Positions 781 through 42,433 of a stretch of DNA of 64,000 bases are shown piece by piece. The DNA is from Darksidea phi (lineage: Eukaryota; Ascomycota; Dothideomycetes; Pleosporales; Lentitheciaceae): the NCBI GenBank assembly GCA_030770425.1, contig JASJFT010000048.1:5693-69692 (forward strand), given 5' to 3'. The translations under genes and the position numbers were made by a program. A model generated the notes under the pieces. That model did not search any database, was not told where the DNA came from, and was given only the letters and a program-made list of their open reading frames with translations. Numbering within the stretch: position 1 is the first letter of the stretch; every line of letters starts with the position of its first letter.

Positions 781-1499
781 TTCCGTCCCCCCTTCTCAAA
801 CGAGCCCTAGAGCCTATAACCTGACTCTAAGCATCTCTCTCGTCTAGACTTGACGAAATCGTAAGGGTATGCTCAACTCATACATAAGTACGATTAGCTG
901 TTAGGAGAGCGCAGGGCAACGTGACTAAGTAGGGGCCTTTAATAAGTCTTAGAAGCGTTTAGAGCGTGGTAGTGGTGCTGTAGCAGAAGAAGTCTATTTC
1001 GCAACAAAAGGAAGCTCTCTACAAATCAGGTGGTGCGGCGACGACGCGAAGGTAATTTTTGGGTGCAAAGGTGTTCGCATGTGTAGAAGCACCTACGGTA
1101 TACGATTAACACAACGAGATACTTCAGGTTTGACTACTACATGTATGTGCATTGCATTACCTTTGTACTGTATCGACTGTTTGGACGAGCGGCGTTGGCG
1201 GGTTTGCGGACTTAACAGTGCTTGATTATGCCTAGCTCCGCTATTCAACACTTGCAGGGGTCAACGAGCGGCGTTAACGGTTAATTAGGCTTAGCTCCGT
1301 TATAACAGCAATGGAACGTGACTGCTGGCAGAGGTCTGATGGAGGAGTCGTACGCGAGCGGCGTTAACGGTTAATTAGGCTACATGTCTACAGCCCGATT
1401 TATATAACTAATTGTTTTGAGGTTGCGTTTCCAAAGCGCACGCAAAGTCTCATATCAAACCGAAGCCATTGAGCCATACATACCATACGACAAACACAC
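781..1499. other. Intergenic region with short direct repeats
   Basis: No gene is recognised. It contains the repeat family at 1185-1385 (separate entry) and the promoter of the MFS gene that starts at 1500. Confidence 0.5.
1185..1385. repeat. Dispersed short direct repeats, three copies
   Basis: A 27-bp sequence starting CGAGCGGCGTTAACGGTTAA occurs identically at 1265-1291 and 1355-1381. A diverged copy lies at 1188-1250. The first two copies continue into a TAGCTCCG-type segment. The copies sit 220 bp or less upstream of the MFS start codon, so they could be promoter elements or transposon debris. Confidence 0.75.
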
Positions 1500-3519
1500 A
1501 TGTCTCTGTCAACACCTTCGCCTCCCTCGCCAGAGGACGGCAAGCCCGAAGCGATCGGAGAGAAAACACATCAGGTCGAGCCGGAAAATGGAGAGCAGAC
1601 CATCGGGCCCAGCGAACGGTCCACTGGGGCATCCTCGACTGTCAATGGGGCAGAGAAATCAGAAATCCCCAAAGACGATGGCCCTGCTGCTGCAGAAAAA
1701 GCCGTGGATGCGCCGCAAGAACTTGTTGCATACCCGAAGGGCGTCGAAGCCTTCTTCGTCCTGCTTGCGCTCGTGCTCAGTATCAGCCTCATGTCTCTGG
1801 ATCAGGTGAGTTTCTACCGCTCCAAGTTTCTCGCAGAGTCGTCTTTTGCCAATGCATCACACGCCGGTAAGCTGATTCTCTCGATTCAGACCATTGTTGC
1901 AACCGCTATTCCAAAAATTACCGACCAGTTCCACAAAATTGACCATATCGCGTGGTACGGCTCGGTTTATTTCCTGACCATCGGAGCTTTCCAGTCACAG
2001 TGGGGCAAAGTGTATAAATACTTTCCCCTCAAAACCAGTTTCCTGGTGTCAATCTTCATCTTTGAACTTGGGAGTTTGATCTGCGCTGTTGCCCCAAACT
2101 CAACGACTTTGATTGTTGGACGTGCTATCACCGGTCTCGGTGCCTCGGGTATCGCGCCTGGAGTATACACGATTGCTGCCTTTGCCACTGAGCCTAGGAA
2201 GAGAGCTACTTGGATGGGGGTCATTGGTGCGGCATATGGCGTCGCCGCTGTGCTTGGACCACTCATTGGTGGAGGGCTTGCAGATGGGGTGTCCTGGAGG
2301 TGGTGAGTCAAGAATGTTGTACTGCTTTGTCTTTGTTGCAAAACAAGGGACTATTTCCAGCTGACCGGACCTGACCTGATCTGATAACTTTAGGTGCTTC
2401 TATATTAATCTTCCATTGGGTGGTCTGATCGCTTTTATCATCCTGCTCACCTTCAAGACCCCTGTAGCCGCTAAGCTGGTCGATGCTACGCTCAAGGAGA
2501 AGCTTCTACACATGGACTTTCTAGGGACGGTGCTTATAATGGGTGCATCCATCGCCTTGCTTCTAGCTCTTCAGTACGGTGGTGTAACCCATGCGTGGGA
2601 TTCCAGCGTTGTTATCGGTTTACTCGTCGGCTTCGTTGTCATGGTTCTTGCACTCACAATGATAGAAATATGGCAAGGCGAACGCGCCATGCTGACACCA
2701 CGCATTATGCGCCAAAGGACCGTCTGGGTCAACGGCGTATGGGGCTTCTTCTTCGCTGGCTCGTATTTCGTCACGCTCTATTATCTGCCCATTTATTTCC
2801 AAAGCATTGACAACGTCAGTCCGATTGGCTCGGGTGTGCGCAACATTCCTCTTATCATCATGTTCAGCATTACCACCTATGCCACAGGCAGAGCCATCAC
2901 AAAGACGGGTATTGCAGCTCCGCAATTGACAGCTGGCTCTGTGGTCGTAACTATCGCCGCTGGTCTACTGTATACTCTTGACATTGGAACCTCGACAGGC
3001 AAATGGGTTGGGTATCAGATCTTGGCGGGCTTCGGATACGGCCTCGCCCTCCAAGTCCCGGTGGTTATTGCGCAGGCTTATGCTACGCCAAGCGACATAG
3101 CTCCTACGACCGCGATTCAGATATGTGAGTTCTCCTTCGCCTTCTTCTAGGATGTCGTCAATTTTCTTTGTCCCCTTGTATCCCTAAGCTAAGTGTGACC
3201 CTCGGGCGTAGGGTATCGATCTATCGGCAGCACATTTTTGCTCGCAGCCGCGCAATCCGGCTTCGCCAACCAGCTGGCACACAAGCTTGCCAACACTGCA
3301 CCGAGCGTCAATCTCGCCCTCGTCACGGCTACAGGTGCCACTGAGCTGCACCAGGTATTTTCCGGAGCTGAGTTGGATGGTGTTATGCGTGCGTACGCAT
3401 GGGGTATCAAGGTTGCTTTCGCAATTACTATTGCGACCTGCGGCGTCACTGTCTTTGTGAGCTTGTGCAGCAAGTGGAACAATATTAACGTGTTGAAATC
3501 CAGGGCTGGAGCTGCCTGA
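1500..3519 (+). CDS. MFS drug:H+ antiporter, DHA2/14-TMS type
   Basis: Exons are 1500-1805, 1890-2302, 2394-3124 and 3212-3519, giving 585 aa with all phases closing. A polar Ser/Pro/Glu-rich N-terminal tail of about 75 residues precedes the first helix. Family marks are the helix-1 [17 protein letters not shown] element, [10 protein letters not shown], the motif-C-like region ending in [11 protein letters not shown], and [13 protein letters not shown] at the second splice junction. The family exports drugs or metabolites across the plasma membrane in exchange for protons. The first intron (84 bp) is a multiple of three and free of stops, so retention would leave the frame open. No lesion was seen. 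It stands alone next to the NLR pair, so no pathway can be assigned. Confidence 0.9.
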
Positions 3520-4140: not shown

Positions 4141-7100
4141 CTATATATTCAACGCAGCCCTTTTGGACCCGTCTGGGCCAAAGAGACGTTGAAAATGTAC
4201 AGTTAAGAACGTCATGAGGACGATCCGTCCCGACAGGCACCCGATAACCACTGTCGACGCCCTCACAGTGGACACTCCTGGTCGGTAGGCCGGCGGCAGC
4301 CACAGCACCCTATGCGATTCCCAGGTAACCCACGCACGGTCCTCGCTGAGCCCGACGCCCTGACGACCGACGCAATGTGGAAGAGGATTGGCCGTTGACA
4401 CTAGCGTGGGCAGCGGTGTCGCTGAACTTGCTGAAGTTGACGATAGTGGTGGCGACGAGGACGACGGGCGGCTACTTAGTGTAAAAGTGCCGACATCAGT
4501 ATATAGAGAGGAGCCAGCCGCGTCGAAAGCGAGGTGTTTAAGATACCCACCCCAAGGGGTGCTAAGTATCACCGTACCGGTGTCCGTTTCCGTATCCCAG
4601 AGCTGGATGTCCCCATTCTCCGATCCCACTGCGAGCATTGTAGGATTGTGCGAGAATGCGATCAAGATGATATAATCGTGGGGATGGAGTGTATTCACTT
4701 GAGTGCCTGTTACCGTATCCCAGAGCTCAATGGTTCCAAGTTCACATGATGCTGCTGCGAGTATTGTAGAATCGTGCGAGAACGCCACTGAGTAGGTATC
4801 CACTGGGCTCGCCCCGCTATCGGCCTTGAGGGTTTCCGTACAGGCGCCTGTTGTTGTATTCCAGAGCTTAATCATCGCATTGCATGATACTGATGCGAGT
4901 ATTGCGGAATCGTGAGAGAACGCTATTGAATCGACCGTATAGTTATGGCCCTCGAGCGTTGCCATACAGGTACCTGTTGCCATATCCCAGAGCTTAATGG
5001 TATAATCGTCCGATATTGACGCGAGTATTGTAGAATCGTGCGAGAATACGACAAAGGTGACATCGTCGCTATGGCCGTCAAGCGTTGTTGTGTAGGTACC
5101 TGTGGCTATATCCCAGAGCTTAATGGTGTTATCGCGCGATGCTGATGCGAGTATTGTAGAATCGTGCGAGATTGCGACAAATTTGACCTCTTCGCTATGG
5201 CCCTCAAGCGTTGTTGTATAGGTGCCTATTGTGGTATCCCAGAGCTTAATAGTATCGTCATCTGATGCTGATGCGAGTGTTGTAGAGTCATGCGAGAATA
5301 CGACTAAAGTGGCCCCGTTGTTATGCCCTTTGAACGTTGCTATACAAGTGCTTGTTGCTATGTCCCAGAGCTTAATGGACTCATCGTACGATACAGATGC
5401 AAGCATTGTAGAATCGTGCGAGAACGCTATTGAGTTGGCCGAACTCTTATGGCCCCTAAGCGTTGCCGTACAGGTACCTGTGGCTATATCCCAGAGCTTA
5501 ATGGTTTTATCGCGCGATGCTGATGCGAGTATTGCAGAATTGTGCGAGAATGCGACCGAATTGATCCCTTTGAGTGTTGCCGTACAGGTCTCTGTGGCTA
5601 TATCCCAGAGCTTAATGGACTCATCATACGATACTGATGCGAGCATTGTAGAATTGTGAGAGAGCGTTACCGAATAGACTGGCTCGTTATGGCCCTTGAG
5701 CGTTGCCATACAGGTGCCTGTGGTTGTATCCCAGAGCTTAATGGTTTTATCGCTTGATGCCGATGCAAGCATTGTAATATCGTGCGAGAATACGACTGGT
5801 CTAAATCTGTCCCTCTCGCTATCGGTCTTGAGAGTTGCCGTACAGGCGCCTGTTGCCGTATCCCAGAGCTTAATAGTATTATCAGCCGATACTGATGCGA
5901 GCATTGTAGAATCGCGAGAGAGCGCTACCGAACGGACTGGCTCGTTATGGCCCTTGAGCGTTGCCATACAGGTGCCTGTGGTTGTATCCCAGAGCTTAAT
6001 GGTTTTATCGCCTGATGCCGATACGAGCATTGTAGAATCGTGCGAAAACGTTACTGAGGAGACCCAGGCGCTATGGTCCTCGAGTGTCTGTGAACACGCA
6101 TCCCAATCGGAATTTGTCTGCGGTAATAGGGAAAAACAGGCTGGGAACTGATTCCGGAACGTCTTCCGGACGATGCTCCGCTCCGGTGCAAACACAACAG
6201 CCGAATAGTAGACTTGGAGAGGCGATATATTGATAATAGACCAGTGGTTCAAAATGATACGCCGCGTATCGTGAAGAAGTATCGAGACGTTGCCATTCTC
6301 TTCCGGCTAATGAACTAGTTAGTACGCCACATAGTAGACTACAAACAGCGAAACAACCTACATCGAGCAAACCCAACAAGTCATCTACCATGCGGATACT
6401 TTCCGAGATCCGCCCTAGGAGGCCCAACGCTTCGAGCCAGTGTAGGAGATGCCGGGTCAGAAAACCATTAACGACATCGCCGTACCGTATCAAGCGCTTG
6501 CTCTCTTTCCAGTGGTAAACCCAGTACCGACATGCATACTGAACCTCAGGCGGCAGGCGGGTGTCGATGATCTTCTGGTCGATCTCGGACCGGCGCGTCC
6601 CGGGCAGCCGCAGCCCACAGACATCTTTCTTAAGTGTATCGCCTAGCAGCTGTAGGCACTGGGCCGCCAGCCGCTCGTGGGTTTCTCGCTCGTTGACCCA
6701 GAACGGATTTATATCGCGGCTCTTATAGTTAACGAGAAAGTCACGAAAGGATAGGTGGAGCATTCTGACAGGGGTGCGCGGGTCATCGGGAATATATAGG
6801 ACGGAATGCAACCCCCTTAGCTTTGAGCCAACGGATGTCTGGGATCTCCCAAGTACTCGTGCAAGCGATATGGTAGGAAGAGGGTCGGCAAGGAGTACAA
6901 TTGTGCCAACAATCTCGCGGAACCAGGCAATTATTTTGACTGTCTCGTCCTCAGTGCGACTAACCAATCCCGAATCCGTACGCTTAAGAAGCAGTCGGCT
7001 TAGAACGGGGAGATATGTCGTGTGAAGCTGGGACCATCCTCCTTTCTTCTGGCATGTCAGGAGTTCATCCAGCTGTTCCGCGGGATCTCCGCAATCACTA

Positions 7101-8214
7101 TCGGCAATGAAGCGACAGGCCGTGGAGGCGAAGATGAAGAGCGGGACAGCCATGTTGACAAGACTCTCAAGAGAGGCGGCAGAAGGCCAGTCATGCGGTA
7201 GCCCCGGGGTTGGAATAGTCTTGTTGAAATCGTCCCGGATTTCGGCTAATCGAAAGCTCAGATATGTAGAAATATCTCTTTTTATGTCCGGCTCGGGGAC
7301 TTCGTGGAGAGCCAGGTCTTTGTAACTGCCGTCAATGTATTTGAAGCCGAGCTGGATGGGCAGCTCGGGCCTGCTGGTGACGAAGAACCTTAGACGGGCG
7401 GATTTCAACTCCTGAGCCTTTGATAGGAGATGGATGATAGCTTTAGCGTCGTCCTCCCGATCGCATTCGTCAAGCGCGTCGATCACTACTACTATTAGTG
7501 TGGGGGTTCGAGGGTCGTTCTTGCACTTGTCTAGAGGCTCCAAGATGAGCTTCTCGAACTGTACTTTCTTGGCTTTATCGATGATGGCGGGGTCATTCTC
7601 GATCGCGCTCTGAACGTGCGGGGCCAAGGGAGGCAGCTGGTGGACAAGCTGGAAAGAAATTGTGGTGAAGAACATAGCTGCTTTGCCGCGGTCGCCTTCG
7701 CCTTTCTTGAAAAAGAAGCTGGCACTGGGGATCTTTTTCTTAGAAAGGTGGGCAGCCACGGTTCGAGATATTGTAGATTTGCCTGTGCCCGCCATGCCTC
7801 GCAGCCAAAAGATGCATTTCCCCTGCTGGTCTTTGACCCATTTGTTAATATCGGCGAGAAGGTCAACTCGGGTGCTAGGATAGCACTTTGGATCGTGCTC
7901 GTGCGCTTGAGAGTCGAAGGCTGCGCCTCTCGCGACCGGAAGCTTTGAGATATTGTCTATTTCGGAACCCTCTAGCCCAGCCATCCGGTTAGTATATGAG
8001 ACCACCGTCCGAATAAATTGCGCTTACCAATGATCAGATCTCTCCCGATGGAGATATTCCCAGAGCCACTGTGGTGGATGCCTACGCCTTGAAAGCCGGA
8101 TTGAGCACCAGACCCGCTGCACCGATCGGGGGCGTGTCGCTTTTCTGGCTCGTCTTCCACGGCTGATGCGGAGGATCGCTCGCTCAGCCGGCGCTTGCTG
8201 GGTCGGGCATCCAT
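4141..8214 (-). CDS. NACHT-WD40 NLR (STAND) with N-terminal amyloid-like motif
   Basis: Exons are 8214-8028, 7971-6362 and 6306-4141, giving 1320 aa with both introns (56 and 55 bp) phase-consistent. Residues 1-62 hold no effector domain, only a basic Ser-rich stretch ending in a short Gly-rich motif (FQGVG, then SGSGNISIGRD). A NACHT NTPase follows: Walker A GMAGTGKST near 121-129, Walker B LIVVVIDALDECD near 221-233, and a FFVTSRPE sensor. A helical region leads to 12 WD40 repeats plus a degenerate last one from about residue 674 to 1205, most ending in IKLWD. The tail has the LWLPPAYRP and IGCLSGRIVLMTF elements usual for the family. By family, WD repeats sense a ligand, NACHT oligomerises, and the exposed N-terminal motif seeds an effector. 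The divergent neighbour carries a matching motif. No inactivating lesion was seen. Confidence 0.92.
4560..6130 (-). repeat. WD40-encoding internal tandem repeats
   Basis: Within the NLR gene, units of about 126 bp (42 codons) repeat roughly 12 times. Many segments are nearly identical between units, for example the stretches encoding SHDSTMLAS and TIKLWDTTTGTC. One unit, near 5565, is shortened and lacks its GH dipeptide region. Such homogenised repeats are typical of highly variable fungal NLR sensor domains. Confidence 0.85.
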
Positions 8215-8729
8215 TGATGGTCGTCCTGGAACGCCCTACTTCGATCAAGCATAGGATTGTCATCAGGAAGAATTGCGCAGAATCGTTCGAAGGGGGGCCT
8301 GAATTCCCAGACGACACGGCGGCTGGAGCGCCAATCAAATTCGCGCAGACGATGGTTGTGCCAAAATCGTCGCAATGCATAGTCCCGAGGCTAGCGCTGG
8401 GTTGAAAATGCGAGAAATAAATCCTGGCGTAGCCACCAGAGCCTCCGGCGTCCAACCTGACTGTTGCGCATAGGACTGTAGAGAAATGGCATGGTTGTTC
8501 TGAATGAGTTCCTATGCGCTAAAAAGGGCGACGGCGCACGGTCCACGGACCGCATCTTGCCATCCTCGTTCCTCGTTCCCACTTGAACAACCAGCGAGCA
8601 GACCAACGCCAGGATCGCGCTACGAGCAGTCTACCATAGACTCATGTGTTACTGACCCTCTGCATTAATATTCGTGTAAGGCTTTCGTCCTTGATCCCAA
8701 TCTAACCAGCTGACTTGAACAGAATCTCA
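8215..8729. promoter_or_regulatory. Shared divergent promoter of the NLR/PNP pair
   Basis: About 515 bp separate the two start codons and must hold both promoters. A likely 5'-UTR intron of the PNP gene lies at 8676-8722 (GTAAGG donor, CTAACC branch point, CAG acceptor), just before the ATG at 8730. No specific operator was recognised. Confidence 0.55.
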
Positions 8730-9818
8730 ATGGCAGACGAATACAGCGATCCGAGGAGGTACGAAGATTACACCGTCGCCGTGATCTGCGCCATCGACTT
8801 CGAGATGAGCGCCGTTCGCTACATGCTAGACCAGGAACATTCCCGCCTGCCTATTAAGCAAGGCGACTCGAACATGTACGTCCTTGGCGAGCTTAGCGGC
8901 CACAACCTCGTCCTCGCATGCCTTCCGGGCAATCAGGGAAAGGGCGCAGCCGCGACCGTCGCTACGAACATGACTCGCACCTTCCCTTCCATCGAGTGGC
9001 GATTTCTCGTCGGTACTGGTGGAGGTGTTCCCAGCGACAAGCACGACATCCGTCTGGGCGACGTGGTTGTGAGCATGCCCGAGGGGCAGTACAGTGGCGT
9101 TGTTCAATACGACCTGGGAAAGGACGCCGATGACGGCTTCATACTTAAAGGATTCCTCTCGCCGCCGCCGCCTCTTTTGAGGAGTGCCGTTGTGAAGATG
9201 CGGTCTGACCACCTTGCCAGCGAGAATAAAATCGAAGAGTTTTTGTCGGCGATGCTACAAAGGGGACCACGCCTTTCCATCTATCAGCCGCCATCTACCA
9301 GACTTGATGTCCTGTTTGAGGCAGGCTATCCTCACGACCCCAAAAATTTTACATGCGAAACATGCGACCGCCAAAAATCCGTTCACCGGTCTTGTCGCGA
9401 ATTCGAAGGCCCCGAAATACACTACGGATTAATTGCTTCTGGCGATCGCGTGATGCGGAGTGCTGTCAAGAGAAACGAAGTGATTCGTAACGTCGGCGAC
9501 ATACTCTGCTTTGAGATGGAAGCGGCCGGACTGATGACTGAGTTCTCCTGCATCGTCATTCGCGGCATCTCCGACTACGCCGACTCTCACAAGAATGACG
9601 CCTGGCAGCATTTTGCGGCTGCGGCGGCCGCAGCGTGCACCAAGGAACTACTTTCTTATCTAGACCCAGAGATAGTTTCCGCCGTGTCGGCACCTTGCGT
9701 AAGCACGGTGTCGAATAGCGATAATGAGCCGACCGCTCGCCATGTTTTTAATGGCACGGGTGTCCAACTCTCTGGTTCGGGGTCTTTGTCTGTCGGGAGG
9801 GATATGCATATCCGTTGA
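8730..9818 (+). CDS. PNP_UDP-domain protein with C-terminal amyloid-like motif
   Basis: Uninterrupted coding exon of 362 aa. The ATG at 8730 is chosen because the open frame upstream has no ATG and a probable intron ends at 8722. Residues from about 10 to 310 form a nucleoside-phosphorylase fold: TVAVICAIDFEMSAV, the WRFLVGTGGGVP loop, IRLGDVVVS, and ICFEMEAAGLM with IRGISDYADSHK near the C-terminal side. In bacteria this fold cleaves or phosphorolyses nucleosides; in fungal NLRs it is a common effector domain. The last 23 residues (340-362) lie outside the enzyme fold and read FNGTG, then SGSGSLSVGRD, then MHIR. They align with the motif at residues 41-62 of the divergent NLR. I infer a two-gene receptor-effector unit. 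Nucleosidase activity is inferred, not shown. Confidence 0.88.
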   Translation: MADEYSDPRRYEDYTVAVICAIDFEMSAVRYMLDQEHSRLPIKQGDSNMYVLGELSGHNLVLACLPGNQGKGAAATVATNMTRTFPSIEWRFLVGTGGGVPSDKHDIRLGDVVVSMPEGQYSGVVQYDLGKDADDGFILKGFLSPPPPLLRSAVVKMRSDHLASENKIEEFLSAMLQRGPRLSIYQPPSTRLDVLFEAGYPHDPKNFTCETCDRQKSVHRSCREFEGPEIHYGLIASGDRVMRSAVKRNEVIRNVGDILCFEMEAAGLMTEFSCIVIRGISDYADSHKNDAWQHFAAAAAAACTKELLSYLDPEIVSAVSAPCVSTVSNSDNEPTARHVFNGTGVQLSGSGSLSVGRDMHIR

Positions 9819-10129
9819 CCGCCAAGAAACCAGTCGGAAGGTCGGGAAATGGGCTCGGAGAACACTATTTTCTCTCAACACAGCAAAGGCATCCGATAAG
9901 CTCCTCGGGCCTCGTCCACCTTACGCCAGCGGATAATTTTCTCTCGGGACGGCTAGCTTCGCTATTGAAACCGCAAGTTCCCTCTCATATTATGTTCAGC
10001 ATGCTACGTATATCAGAAGCAAAGCTCTACATCAGGTTAGAAGATGGCCACTTGTAGGACTACGTATTAAAGATTCGCCACTTCAGCCTTGTCAGGCAAG
10101 CGAACTACTCCGATGCCGCTAGTAGGGAG
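9819..10129. other. Intergenic, no gene seen
   Basis: This is the 3' flank of the PNP gene. Nothing recognisable was found before the AT-rich transposon remnant begins. Confidence 0.5.
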
Positions 10130-10815
10130 GACGGCCGGCCCGCTCTAGATATAGGGTTACCGTAAACGTCTAGAATAGATAACGTTAGAAAGGGATATAA
10201 GAATTATTACTAGTAGCGAAGGATAGTATTTAGCTCTAGGTAGCGTAATATCTAGTCAAGTATAGCCGCTAGTATAGCTCTACTCTACCGTATCCGGCTA
10301 TTATAAATATAAAAGTAATCTTAAAGCTTAATATTAAATTAAGAACGTCGTTATTAGTAGCCCTACCAGAGGCTATATAGGAGGCTAGAATACTAAATAA
10401 TACGTATAAACTAGAGGCTTAAATAATATTAATTTATAAGTACGTAGGTAGGTATAAGAGCCCGTTACCTATTTTTATTATAATAGTTATTAATTAGCTA
10501 AAGAAAAGTACTAAGGTAATAGCTTATAAAGCTAACTTATACTTATATACGAACGAATTAGGAGCCTAGAGAAAGTAAATAAGGCCGTTATAATACGTAA
10601 ATAGCGTACAAAGAAGCGAATCTAGAAGTAGGGTACCCTAACCAAGGTAGAGGGAGAGGATATTATTATTCAAAAGGATGCTAAGTAGCAGCTAGAGAAC
10701 GAAAGATGTTAAGTTGCTACGCAATCAGGTATGAGCCGGCAGGCTTTATAGCGCTACACGCACTGTAGAGAACCTGGGCATAACTCACGAACGTGTAAGA
10801 AAGCTACTGGAGATA
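10130..10815 (+). mobile_element. Decayed Fot1/pogo-type DNA transposon, 3' part
   Basis: The stretch is rich in AT and TpA and full of stops in every frame, unlike its neighbours, as expected after repeat-induced point mutation. Near 10751-10813 the plus strand still reads RYTHCREPGHNSRTCKKATGD-like codons. This is the Cys-x-x-Cys/His-x4-Cys knuckle found at the C-terminus of Fot1/pogo DDE transposases. The DDE core is not readable. Terminal inverted repeats were not identified. Confidence 0.65.
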
Positions 10816-10819
10816 CTGC

Positions 10820-11296
10820 TTGTATCAGAATAGCTATTATATTGATAGATTTCTAATACCTTGTTGGACTACGTGGCTTTTTAGGTATAGAAAAAGAGAC
10901 GACCGCTTCTATGTTCAAGTTCCAGCGGTTCCTGTTGTCACTACCATGATGCCGGGATACAAAGATCCAATAACTACAAGTTTTGTGGTTAATTATTGTG
11001 CGTATCTGATTCTGGTGAACAATCTTCTCGAAAAATTAGCTGGGTCTAGCTCGTATTGGAAGGAAACCGAGCGCTCGCGACGGAAAATCTGTCTTTCAGC
11101 ATTATACTGCTATAAAGCCGGCTTTTGTGGTTTGCAGGCAATCACTTTAGCCCTACCAATCGCTCTCATTGCGCTGTCGCAGAAAGACCAATCAAGCGTT
11201 CGAAAATGGATAGAAAATTTCGATCAATCGAAGGAGCCCAATAAACTTTGGTCGACCATTTTGGAAAAGACCGAAAACGAGTTGTTTAAGATTTAA
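10820..11296 (+). pseudogene. 3' fragment of a fungal transcription-regulator-like gene
   Basis: An open frame of 158 codons has the pattern VVNYCAYLILVNNLLEKL, ICLSALYCYKAGFCGLQ and ALPIALIAL. This recalls the C-terminal part of fungal-specific Zn2Cys6 regulators, where a row of helices follows a polar linker. There is no DNA-binding domain and no credible upstream exon, because the sequence before it is transposon debris. I read it as a truncated gene end left by the insertion. The family assignment is tentative. Confidence 0.35.
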
Positions 11297-11354: not shown

Positions 11355-12585
11355 TTAGTAGCCGATTACATTCTTGGGAACATACTGAGCCTCCAAATTG
11401 TTAATCTCCTCTAGGGTTAGAGTGACCTTCACGGCTTGAACGGCTTCGTCAATACGTTTCTTACTGTTGAGACCCATAATCGGATTTACACCCTTGTGTA
11501 GGCACCAAGCCGTCGCTATCACAGCCATCGGAAGCCCACGTGCCTTTGCGATCTCTTCAACTGCGCCCACAACAGCTTTGTTGACAGGATCATCTCGAGG
11601 TACAATTCGAGGTAGACCGACGTCAGTTTCTTCACGTAAGGTAGCTGCACTTCCATCGTTCCAAGAACGCGCTAGCACACCGCGAGCGATAGGCGACCAC
11701 TGTTCGTCCTGTTAGGGAATCCAGCGATGCTGCAATAAGATCTGCACGTACCGGAATAAGTCCAACACCGGTAGCCTTGCAGTAAGGGATCATCTCACGC
11801 TCTTCCTCTCTGTAGAGGAGGTTATAGTAGTTCTGCATGCTGATGAACTTGTGCCAGCCGTGTTTCTCCGCAATATTCTGGAGCATTTGGAACTCCCAAG
11901 CAGCCATCTATAACCTCAGTCAATTGAGTTTCACCACGGTTCCACCGAATACGTACCGAGCTTGCACCGATGTATCGGACCCATCCATTTTCCACCACGT
12001 CATTTAACGCTCTCATGATCTCTTCGTATGGAACATCACGATCCAGTCGGTGGATTTGCAGTACATCAATATATGTTCCTAACCGTCTCATGCTATTTTG
12101 AACGGCATCGAATATACGTTTGCGTGAAAGACCGACCCGATTGACCATTCGACCATCGTTAACAGTGGAGTGAAGTAACGCCAGCGGGGGCTCTCCAGCA
12201 ATACTCGTACCCCAGCGGCATTTGGTCATGATCACGACGTTTTCTCGAGGAATCTTGTATGTTGCAAGGGCTTTCGCAATAATTTCTTCAGATTTGCCGT
12301 CAGAGTAGAGATCAGCCTGTTCATGATCAGATTCAGCATTACGTTGAAAAGGTATGAGTAGCTCACGGTATCCCAGGTATTAATACCAGCTTTGTAAGCA
12401 TGTTCCAGCAATGGAAGTGCTTCGTCCTCTTCGAGAACCCACTTTGCCCACTCTTTGCTACCATAGGACATGGCCCCTAAGATGATCTTCGAAACTTTCA
12501 GGCCAGAGTTACCCAAACGGTTGTATTCCACCTGTGTTGGCGGTGGGGCTACAAGAAGATCAGCCATGTAGTTTGAGTTTGACAT
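11355..12585 (-). CDS. Aldo-keto reductase (aryl-alcohol dehydrogenase-like)
   Basis: Exons are 12585-12367, 12316-11957, 11907-11752 and 11699-11355, giving 359 aa. The three introns are 49-52 bp and all in phase 0. The AKR barrel is recognisable throughout: [42 protein letters not shown] across the first junction, [22 protein letters not shown] joined to [10 protein letters not shown], and [21 protein letters not shown]. The expected tetrad is present (about D72, Y77, K105, H162). Family members reduce aldehydes and ketones with NADPH. It is the first intact gene of the metabolism-like block that runs to 31.8 kb. No lesion was seen. Confidence 0.9.
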
Positions 12586-13163
12586 TATGTGTATGTGTGT
12601 GTGAGAGAGAGAGAGAGAGAGATTTGAGGAAACTCGAGATTGAATTATCGAGAGGAGATCTGTTGATGTAGGTTGTTAGAGGAATATTCGCTCGCAATAT
12701 ATACTTGGCCGTTCCACCATTTCCTCATGGTCGAAATAGATATCCGCGGGTTTAACGGAGCAATGTGTGCACAGCATGTGGACAATTCATAACCCGCTCT
12801 CTACCGGTAGTTTGGCCCTACAAAAATCCCTGCAGCATGCTGATGCAGTGTGCTCCGACTACGGGTCAGCAGCGCTAGTCTTAATCTGATCTTAAGCTAC
12901 GAATTTTAGCGTGGACAAGGTTAGTCCTAATCTAGTCTCAAGCTACGAATTTTAGCGTGGACAGGTTAGTATCGAAGCTGATCCAAAATCATCACAGCTC
13001 GGGAACATCAAATCGGCCGGTATGGTTAATTGATACTCAAGCATGTCGGAACAACGCAATAACTCAGGGGCTGGCGTGATCTCTCCATCCATGAAGAGCT
13101 TGAGACCCGAGAAAAAGAAAGACTATGACATCTATCAAAACAGGACAATGCCTTGCCCCAGCA
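12586..13163. other. Intergenic region with microsatellite and tandem repeat
   Basis: A (GT)n(GA)n microsatellite lies at about 12587-12622, directly upstream of the reductase start. A two-copy 45-bp repeat is at 12877-12968. No gene was recognised; a short open frame at 13043-13270 has no familiar content. Confidence 0.6.
12877..12968. repeat. Two-copy tandem repeat, 45-46 bp unit
   Basis: Both copies contain AAGCTACGAATTTTAGCGTG and continue GACA(A)GGTTAGT. They differ at only a few positions, mostly C/T. Confidence 0.8.
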
Positions 13164-39970: not shown

Positions 39971-42433
39971 ATGATGCTTCTCCACGGGCTGGCCCGCTTC
40001 GCTATCTTTGCTACTTTAGCAAGGGGTTCTTTGGCCAGAGCCGTGGTCTCTGATAACGGCATTGTCCGTCGAGATGATAGGTACTATAGGTCCTACCCTT
40101 GGTGTTGTGGCTTATCCAGCTAACAGGCCTCCCAGCCCAGCTAATCCTGCAACCATTGCGGGAACAAATTCCCATACGCCGGTCTCTATCGCTGTACTTC
40201 CATTATCTGAGGTGATTTCGACAACGGCCAATCTATCGCCTCCACTCTCTGATACTAGTATCGCGCCACCTCCGCCCTCTGATACTACTATCCCACCACC
40301 TCCGCCCTCCGATACCAGTATCCTACCACCTCCACCCTCCGATACCAGTATCCCGCCACCTCCACCCTCCGATACCAGTATCCTACCGCCTCCACCCTCT
40401 GATACTACTATCCCACCACCTCCGCCCTCTGATACTACTATCCCACCACCTCCGCCCTCTGATACTACTATCCTACCACCTCCGCCCTCTGATACTAGTA
40501 TCCCGCCACCTCCACCCTCTGATACTAGTATCCCACCACCTCCACCACCTGGAGAGACGAACCCACCACCACCCGGAGAGACGGATCCACCACCACCTCC
40601 ACCACCTGGAGAGACTCCGCCACCGTCCGCAAGCGAAAGTAGCAGATCCTGCACGACTAGTATTAGTGCCACCTGGCAAAGCGTCCTCTGCACGGTTGTA
40701 GAGTCAGCTACAACCGCTCCGCCTGCATGTGTGACTAGTGCTTTCACAACGGTAGTAGAGTGCAGCGGGGCCACACCCTCAGCTACTACGAGCACTACGA
40801 CAGTGAATCCCCCTAAGGCAACGACGGTTTGCAGCCCGAAGAATTGCGGAAAAGCATGTGGTGCACCAGCGAAGAGAGATGAATTAGGGATTGTTAAGAG
40901 GGCGGTGCCGAGGGAGCCGAAGCCAGACGAGTGCAAATGGGCAGGTACGTATAGAGCCTTTTCTATTTCATTTTTCTTTTTGGGACATAAAATACTAATT
41001 CTTGCGTTCTGACAGGCCCTGAGAACTACGCCGACCCGGCCAATTTCATGGCAAGCGAAGGCAACTTAGGCTTTTCCAACGCAGAGGACGGGAAGAACTC
41101 GGCCATAGTGCCACTTCCATTGGATGGCAGGACGTCGTCAAAATTGATAAACTTCTTGGACAAACCAGTATCCCTCGCAATTCCTCACCTCATCGGCTGT
41201 ACCTCGATCATTGTCGTCTCGAAGAAGGGAGCCTGGGCGAACCATATCTGGGAGTCGCCGACTTTTAGACCGGAACGAAATAGTGATCCAGAGACCGGCG
41301 ACGAGCGCCCAGGATGGTATATGCCTGGTTTTGGGGAAGACCGGCCGATTACAGAAACATTTCCTTATGCGGAACAGCTGGCCTTTTTCAAAGAGCACGC
41401 CCTAGACCGACTGCATAGTCGGTACGACCCTGTTACAGCTGAGCATGAGTCCGGCCTCGACCAGTTGAGGGAGAAGGGTAACATATTTGATGACGAGAGC
41501 AACTTCAGCGTCTTCTTCTTTGCTCCGTACGTAACTATTGATGATGAAAAGGACCCCAATTACATGAAGGAGAACCCTCAAGGACTCTCACCTGCTTGGG
41601 ATCGCTCCGGCGCTCCCAATCCAAGAGCGGATGAGGGCAAAACCGCATTGAACGACCAAATCAAAGACGAACTCAAGGCTATTTTCGGTCAAGAAGGCCT
41701 GGCGATAGAAACGGTCCTCTATGCCCCTGACGTTGAAGATGCCTTTGATGATAACTGGGAATCGCACCGAGGGAGGGCTCTAGTCCAGTACCAGCCTGGA
41801 GACAGCAAGGACTGCGAAAAATCGAAGGCGCAGTGGCGAATCTATTTCGAGGGGGCGCAGGAGCCGCACACCAAGATCGAATGGGATCCGCTCGAGTCAC
41901 AGGGCCAAGATAAACCTTCTCAGTGGTGCCCACAGCCCGAGAACAATAACAAAGTGCGTCGCCAGGCGTGTAAGCCCCAGGATACGCCCCCGGAAGATCC
42001 CAAACCGACCAAGGCGCTGTCGATCGTCTTCGAGTCCAAGTACGACCGCACCGAAGGGGAAGCCCCTGATTGGGTGACTGTCTGGGACAAGAGAAGATGG
42101 CTATTCTATGAGCACAACATTGGAGACCCTGTAGGATGCTTCGACAGAGAGAATGCGTGGCAATTTGAAGAGTCTGACTCGGAGAAGGCAGATGATATGC
42201 CTGACTGGCCCTCAAACCCAGAGATCAACAGCGAGGACTTTGACGAGCCTTCAGTACTTCCCCAAGGTTGCTCCTATAGGAACGACGGTACCAACCCGGG
42301 CAGACTATTTTGTCCCGATTTACCAGGGGGAGGTGTTAATTGTAGGGAGCACGAGGATCGCAAGGATCCAGGGAAAACGTATGAATGTGAAGATGAGTCG
42401 CGCCGGCGCGCGGCTGTCGTTTGTGAGTGGTAG
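39971..42433 (+). CDS. Secreted protein with Pro-rich SDT(S/T)I repeats
   Basis: Exons are 39971-40080, 40127-40944 and 41016-42433, giving 781 aa with phases closing. The protein starts MMLLHGLARFAIFATLARGS, a signal peptide that probably ends near ARA. A basic RRDDR follows and may be a processing site. From about residue 90 a ten-residue unit of the form SDT(S/T)I(P/L/A)PPPP is repeated ten times and ends in PPPGET units. A Ser/Thr/Cys part with CSPKNCGKACG follows, and the last 470 residues form an acidic domain rich in Trp and Asp (YADPANFMASEGN, DWVTVWDKRRWLFYEH). I do not recognise that domain. The layout suggests an extracellular or wall-associated protein. The repeat DNA is a 30-bp minisatellite, so length should vary between strains. 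Confidence 0.8.
40245..40560 (+). repeat. 30-bp coding minisatellite
   Basis: About ten copies of a 30-bp unit centred on CCACCTCCGCCCTCTGATAC, with silent and Pro/Leu or Ser/Thr variation between copies. It encodes the SDT(S/T)I-Pro repeat of the secreted protein. Confidence 0.9.

Follow-up and report, generated by a model that had tools for sequence, protein, structure and literature searches.

The divergent genes NWD2 and HET-S of Podospora anserina encode a NACHT-WD40 receptor with an N-terminal motif and an effector with the corresponding motif at its C-terminus (PMC3321046). UDP-phosphorylase/STAND pairs were described in 2012 from Aspergillus oryzae, A. terreus and Magnaporthe; in these a C-terminal extension of the enzyme shows homology with the N-terminal region of an adjoining STAND protein that lacks an effector domain (PMC3321046). 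The PNP_UDP-associated amyloid signalling motif (PUASM) was named later, in 2022, with the pattern FxGxGxQxxGxGxF, and was reported from the N-termini of 33 NLRs and from 29 effectors, only in association with effectors of the PNP_UDP class; its receptors are described as NACHT or NACHT-WD40 proteins of Pezizomycotina (PMC9815663). Both peptides of a PUASM pair from Colletotrichum gloeosporioides gave fibrils and bound thioflavin T (ThT), and the effector-side motif showed prion behavior in Podospora when placed C-terminal to GFP (PMC9815663). PUASM 1-2 are also named among the fungal families in a later paper (PMC12261475). The stretch of Darksidea phi DNA analyzed here (64,000 nt, hereafter the window, on contig C421 of a source genome of 51.35 Mb and 477 contigs) carries a divergent pair of genes, one for a NACHT-WD40 receptor (the NLR) and one for a PNP_UDP protein (the PNP), with a common motif at their ends. 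The pair is one more case of the published PUASM family, PNP_UDP/STAND pairs with common terminal regions having been described in PMC3321046. It is probably, at roughly 0.78, a two-component PUASM signaling module with an amyloid relay from receptor to nucleosidase.

The layout of the window pair is that of NWD2/HET-S: divergent genes, an N-terminal motif on the NACHT-WD40 protein and a C-terminal one on the effector. The effectors differ, NWD2/HET-S having a HeLo pore-forming domain with the HET-s motif, the window a nucleosidase-fold enzyme with one PUASM copy. The UDP-phosphorylase/STAND pairs resemble the window in the homology between enzyme extension and receptor N-terminus. The closest described pair is EQB50682.1/EQB50683.1 of C. 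gloeosporioides, likewise a PNP_UDP protein with a C-terminal motif and an NLR with an N-terminal motif of the same consensus (PMC9815663); the tested Colletotrichum effector peptide is identical to the PNP motif of the window at 12/22 positions and to the NLR motif at 14/22. All-in-one fungal PNP-NACHT receptors combine the domains of the window pair in an apparent cis fusion of effector and receptor. Bacterial immune PNP effectors (Detocs and others) also use an enzyme of the PNP superfamily, a relation shown for the domain, and their activating partners differ from those in the window.

The original prediction, made from the DNA letters, placed a motif at NLR residues 41-62 and within the final 23 residues of the PNP and counted 12 identities over 22 ungapped positions; these positions were confirmed, and the recomputed identity is 12/22. 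Local alignment of the two protein ends scored 77, compared with a mean of 23.0 (standard deviation 4.6) and a maximum of 47 in 2000 shuffles. The pattern F.G.G....[GS].[GS] matched three times in the six frames of the window, at the two motif sites and at one place spanning a stop. Chance similarity is thus ruled out by the shuffles together with the pattern scan, and the resemblance is real. The motif name given in the prediction, PUASM, proved correct, since pattern, place and partner domains agree with the description in PMC9815663. Its reading of the pair as a two-component, amyloid-triggered module is likewise supported, the functional half by way of published homologues. The core pattern is present in degenerate form, with six of the seven fixed letters on the PNP side (the last F is L) and five of seven on the NLR side (Q is H, the last F is I). 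Among 60 PNP relatives the position of the last F is occupied by F (39), L (6), I (6) or V (5), and Q is found in 54/60. The motif lies at the C-terminus of a PNP_UDP effector, and the same motif lies in a NACHT-WD40 N-terminus encoded less than 20 kb away, in the adjoining divergent gene. The HET-s/HRAM, PP and sigma profiles of Pfam, the only collection used for this comparison, gave no match to either window end at E<=1, a search in which the HMMER filters drop weak matches.

The description of an NLR without effector domain, divergent from a complete PNP_UDP protein, is borne out by the gene models and Pfam (Table 1). The spliced NLR model has no internal stop over its 1320 aa, its introns being deduced from GT..AG ends and CTAAC boxes, and the NACHT profile of Pfam matches at E 6.2e-07. 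No effector domain was found ahead of NACHT by Pfam in the first 138 residues at E<=1, where only the NACHT start and weak overlapping P-loop families matched. Exon 1, with the motif, is probably translated, because the GT following the motif sits at the same place and phase in the second PUASM receptor of the source genome (locus L038, see below). Intron 1 contains an in-frame ATG (MAGLEGSEIDN...), which would yield a motif-less receptor if the intron were left unspliced. A basic stretch precedes the motif in both PUASM receptors (KRRLSER...EKRH and KKHQFDEER...KKRHK; L038 and window 8130-8200) and could, from its composition, be a nuclear localization signal; the similarity between the two pre-motif regions is weak, 34/2000 shuffles being as good. 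The 12 WD40 repeats (4582-6099) vary highly at repeat positions 7, 10-12, 14, 30 and 32, which we take to be close to the specificity positions of the HET-E/HET-D repeats. High identity between these repeats, as a mark of recent reshuffling, was looked for and is not strong: in one 42-residue register, from which 4/11 repeat spacings differ, the mean is 0.46 for amino acids and 0.63 for nucleotides, with some stretches reaching 84-89% matches.

The PNP matches the PNP_UDP_1 profile at E 3.3e-13 with 50 bits (curated cut-off 25.1), which assigns the predicted protein to that superfamily. The AlphaFold2 model has a mean predicted local distance difference test score of 84.7, with residues 318-363 nearly all below 50, and the tail after the domain is accordingly predicted to be disordered. 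Structure search (Foldseek/VIA) gave methylthioadenosine/S-adenosylhomocysteine (MTA/SAH) nucleosidases (MTANs) as the top matches among the matches listed. Residues E26, E265 and D283 are conserved and align with MTAN residues that presumably act in catalysis. The PNP retrieved 7798 proteins at E<=1e-10, and family statistics refer to the best 120 of these plus the window protein (n=121). The strict motif is present within 60 residues of the C-terminus in 71/121. Among the 108 PNPs of 325-400 aa, 71 have the strict motif, 18 a shortened or diverged one (by a loose pattern written after viewing these tails) and 19 neither, some of the 19 with visible remnants. In 60 single-domain PNPs, a set picked by whole-length similarity and therefore favoring motif bearers, the commonest residue takes a mean share of 0.78 at domain positions, 0.63 at motif positions and 0.30 at linker positions. 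A FastTree phylogeny of 29 listed relatives and 26 source-genome sequences (25 matches plus the window; midpoint-rooted, no support values used) places the window PNP in one clade with 27/29 listed relatives, some of them motif-less. Of the source-genome sequences, L024, where a NACHT follows the PNP in the same orientation, comes nearest to this clade, and the PNP of L038 lies far outside it. The best named matches are from Ilyonectria, Fusarium and Colletotrichum for the PNP and from Gaeumannomyces for the NLR, all of which we take to be Sordariomycetes.

The source genome yielded 46 rows of PNP matches and at least 155 NPHP3_N matches. Sixteen of the 46 PNP rows show a fused-type layout, with a match from this NACHT list in the same orientation no more than about 600 bp downstream; one such locus, on contig C11, has stops inside both matches. 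In at least five PNP rows a NACHT lies within 2 kb on the other strand, in divergent orientation: the window, C20 (L038), C223 (L036), C55 (L015) and C93 (L037). The sequence after the PNP match was read in 27/46 rows, namely those of the window and of 25 matches from 24 loci, with one match spanning two rows; the fetched loci L009, L010 and L030 gave no PNP match at 1e-5. Reading ended at the first in-frame stop, and the six frames were scanned for PUASM only, so motifs of other kinds lying beyond introns could be missed. The six-frame PUASM scan covered the window and 39 loci. Random placement of the motif and a lack of co-occurrence of the two genes had been named beforehand as signs against the original prediction, and neither was borne out: apart from two stop-containing chance frames, all matches to the PUASM patterns fell at the ends of two NLR/PNP pairs, and L038 is a second adjacent PUASM pair. 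Further PUASM receptors may exist in this genome, NLR N-termini having been examined at selected loci.

Four of these five divergent loci (the window, L038, L036 and L015) have a motif common to the PNP end and the NLR start. The fifth, C93, was considered and is not counted as a split pair, because its PNP frame enters an apparent NB-ARC domain (judged by eye) and its neighbor has a HET-like start. The pair at C223:598000-600700 (L036) has a PP-like motif in common, both ends matching PF17046 (named Ses_B) just under the cut-off of 23.2 bits, at 22.9 and 22.5 bits. PF17046 corresponds to the PP motif as described in PMC12261475, and an HRAM-like assignment of this motif was not borne out, Pfam pointing to PP. 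The pair at C55:102316-112315 (L015) has another common motif, FQNYGSVYGKNVLQGQTYGDSTTLNF in the PNP tail and FQSHGPVQGNNVLQGVTTGDNTIINF in the NLR; it gave no Pfam match at E<=1 and is possibly a further class of amyloid motif. When the four PNP ends were compared with the four NLR ends, scores above all 2000 shuffles were obtained for every true pair and for the two PUASM pairs crossed with each other in both directions; comparisons between different motif kinds all lay within the shuffles, the closest with 158/2000 as good. As the motif kinds match within pairs and stand at chance level between kinds, the sequences suggest parallel insulated signaling channels in one genome.

The second divergent PUASM pair, L038 (C20:134300-137100), appears to preserve the event by which its PNP gene acquired the motif. 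Its effector-tail exon is an inverted copy of receptor exon 1 (nt 632-856 against 2552-2776 of the locus), with 183/224 aligned nucleotides identical and an ungapped protein alignment of 71 residues between the two ends. The copied stretch takes in receptor exon 1 and continues for 23 bp into the putative intron that follows, and this inclusion of intron sequence suggests that copying went from receptor to effector. The PNP frame ends 5' of the copied stretch, so a putative PNP intron (170 bp in the model, phases fitting) must be spliced to make the tail. No purifying selection was seen on the copied motif, over 22 codons with few sites (nonsynonymous divergence, dN, 0.145; synonymous divergence, dS, 0.095), a result compatible with recent copying, gene conversion or decay; all 71 copied codons gave dN 0.236 and dS 0.292. 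The NACHT piece of L038 scores 205 with the NACHT of C55 and 68 with that of the window, and the PNPs of L038 and the window share 34% identity, which indicates that motif, NACHT and PNP lineages have been shuffled relative to one another. We propose, tentatively and at somewhat less than even odds, that amyloid signaling partners were recruited by copying of a receptor first exon, and that the two PUASM receptors and two effectors could cross-signal while the two other PNP/NLR channels would be insulated.

The module proposed for the window would work as follows. The WD40 repeats would sense a ligand, upon which NACHT would oligomerize and gather the N-terminal motifs. The gathered motifs would nucleate a cross-beta (amyloid) fold and template the matching motif at the end of the disordered PNP tail. 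Once clustered, the PNP domains would become active and split a purine nucleotide, with ATP the likeliest, at its N-glycosidic bond, and this cleavage would kill or arrest the cell. The proposal is based on the gene architecture, the motif match, a PNP family in which the motif is largely retained, the nucleosidase fold, the conserved catalytic positions and the matched motifs in four divergent pairs. Amyloid and prion behavior of PUASM and ATP cleavage by bacterial immune PNP effectors are published for homologues, and it is by analogy with these that ligand, oligomerization, templating between the window proteins, substrate and cell death are assigned.

Several observations weigh against this proposal. 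When the Colletotrichum motif was placed N-terminal to a fluorescent protein, the fusions remained diffuse (PMC9815663). The prevailing endings (receptor ARD, effector GND) are described as tendencies rather than defining features (PMC9815663); the window differs from both, with GRD on receptor and effector alike, and PNP relatives have R (18), G (18), N (11) or K (7) at that ending position (n=60). The PNP motif matches the L038 receptor (13/22 identical, end-to-end score 87) at least as well as it does its own (12/22, score 77), so that sequence co-evolution inside the window pair, which was looked for, is not visible. Curated MTAN models match the PNP well below their cut-offs. NLR residues 1-300 gave 4524 matches, and some of the best 120 carry PNP_UDP or RelA/SpoT by Pfam label or name; the loose motif pattern matched 1/120 of these, in a form that is not motif-like, and the N-terminus of the window receptor therefore seems to have been swapped in comparison with its closest NACHT relatives. 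With the first 66 residues of the NLR as query, none of 18 candidates reached E<=10, and no receptor relatives were recovered.

Motif signaling may hold with a main substrate other than ATP, such as another purine nucleoside or nucleotide (MTA/SAH, dATP, others), or with a phosphorylase as the enzyme. The best curated models and sequence relatives in the PDB are mainly MTA/SAH nucleosidases, and the fold does not reveal specificity. The bacterial immune PNP effectors are stated to cleave ATP (PMC10197012, PMC11249213), and the PADLOC model for PN-superfamily effectors matches the window PNP; on balance we lean away from another substrate while regarding it as a real possibility. The motif could instead be a homotypic docking tag by which receptor and enzyme co-assemble in a bounded complex without self-propagating amyloid. 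The same sequence facts fit such a tag, and some Gly/Ser-rich tags could conceivably stack stoichiometrically. It is made unlikely by the fibrils, ThT binding and effector-side prion behavior of the homologous PUASM peptides (PMC9815663), and by the combination of disordered linker and end-placed motif, which is the layout of HET-S-type effectors. A third reading, in which the similarity was left behind by a gene split or duplication and no longer serves signaling, is very improbable, since the motif is kept and the preceding linker is not among the 60 relatives, a set favoring motif bearers, and matched motifs of three kinds occur in four pairs, against which stand the missing purifying signal at L038 and the 19/108 PNPs of similar length without the motif.

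Table 1. Positions in the window of the NLR and PNP_UDP genes and their parts
Feature	Position	Strand	Evidence or remarks
NLR gene (NACHT-WD40 receptor)	4141..8214	-	3-exon model, 1320 aa, open throughout; Pfam NPHP3_N, NACHT, WD40
NLR exon 1, motif-bearing	8028..8214	-	adjoins GT..AG intron with CTAAC box; same GT place and phase in L038 receptor
NLR intron 1, putative	7972..8027	-	56 bp, GTAAGC...CTAAC...TAG
NLR exon 2	6362..7971	-	spliced model
NLR intron 2, putative	6307..6361	-	55 bp, GTAGGT...CTAAC...TAG
NLR exon 3	4141..6306	-	spliced model
NACHT (NPHP3_N) nucleotide-binding domain	7370..7852	-	Pfam PF24883, E 1.6e-32
WD40 repeats, 12 anchored at LWD/LWN	4582..6099	-	Pfam and repeat register
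Intergenic region common to both genes (divergent promoter)	8215..8729	.	515 bp, from gene models
PNP_UDP effector gene	8730..9818	+	single exon, ATG 8730 to stop 9818, 362 aa
PNP_UDP_1 domain, MTA/SAH nucleosidase fold	8772..9656	+	Pfam, AlphaFold2, Foldseek/VIA
Receptor-side PUASM FQGVGIHHSGSGNISIGRDLII, residues 41-62	8029..8094	-	pattern scan, alignment, shuffles
Effector-side PUASM FNGTGVQLSGSGSLSVGRDMHIR, C-terminal (last 23 residues)	9747..9815	+	pattern scan, alignment, shuffles

The genes flanking the pair were called by Pfam on one open frame each and are an MFS transporter (1473-3519), an aldo/keto reductase (11355-12675) and a cytochrome P450 (13285-14485). Directly downstream of the PNP gene the GC content drops to 0.38 at 10000-11000, with about 0.5 around it; this stretch resembles the remains of an AT-rich transposon, possibly altered by repeat-induced point mutation. 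About ten 30-bp repeats lie at 40239-40546, inside the open frame 40020-41009. A bacterial-type promoter scan of the intergenic region was discarded as without meaning in a fungus.

Gene splitting and gene fusion are the origins weighed for two-gene systems in PMC3321046, where the motifs are called portable units. A literature query on exon duplication returned no papers, supplements and subscription papers lying outside it, and no claim is made that the idea is unpublished. The four PNP/NLR pairs with three motif kinds in one genome constitute a natural experiment on whether amyloid motifs separate parallel death signals. The second PUASM pair offers the most room for novelty; it preserves an apparent copying event that made a PNP gene amyloid-responsive. 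If this reading of L038 is true, two-gene amyloid systems would have a third concrete origin, exon copying, beside gene splitting and fusion.

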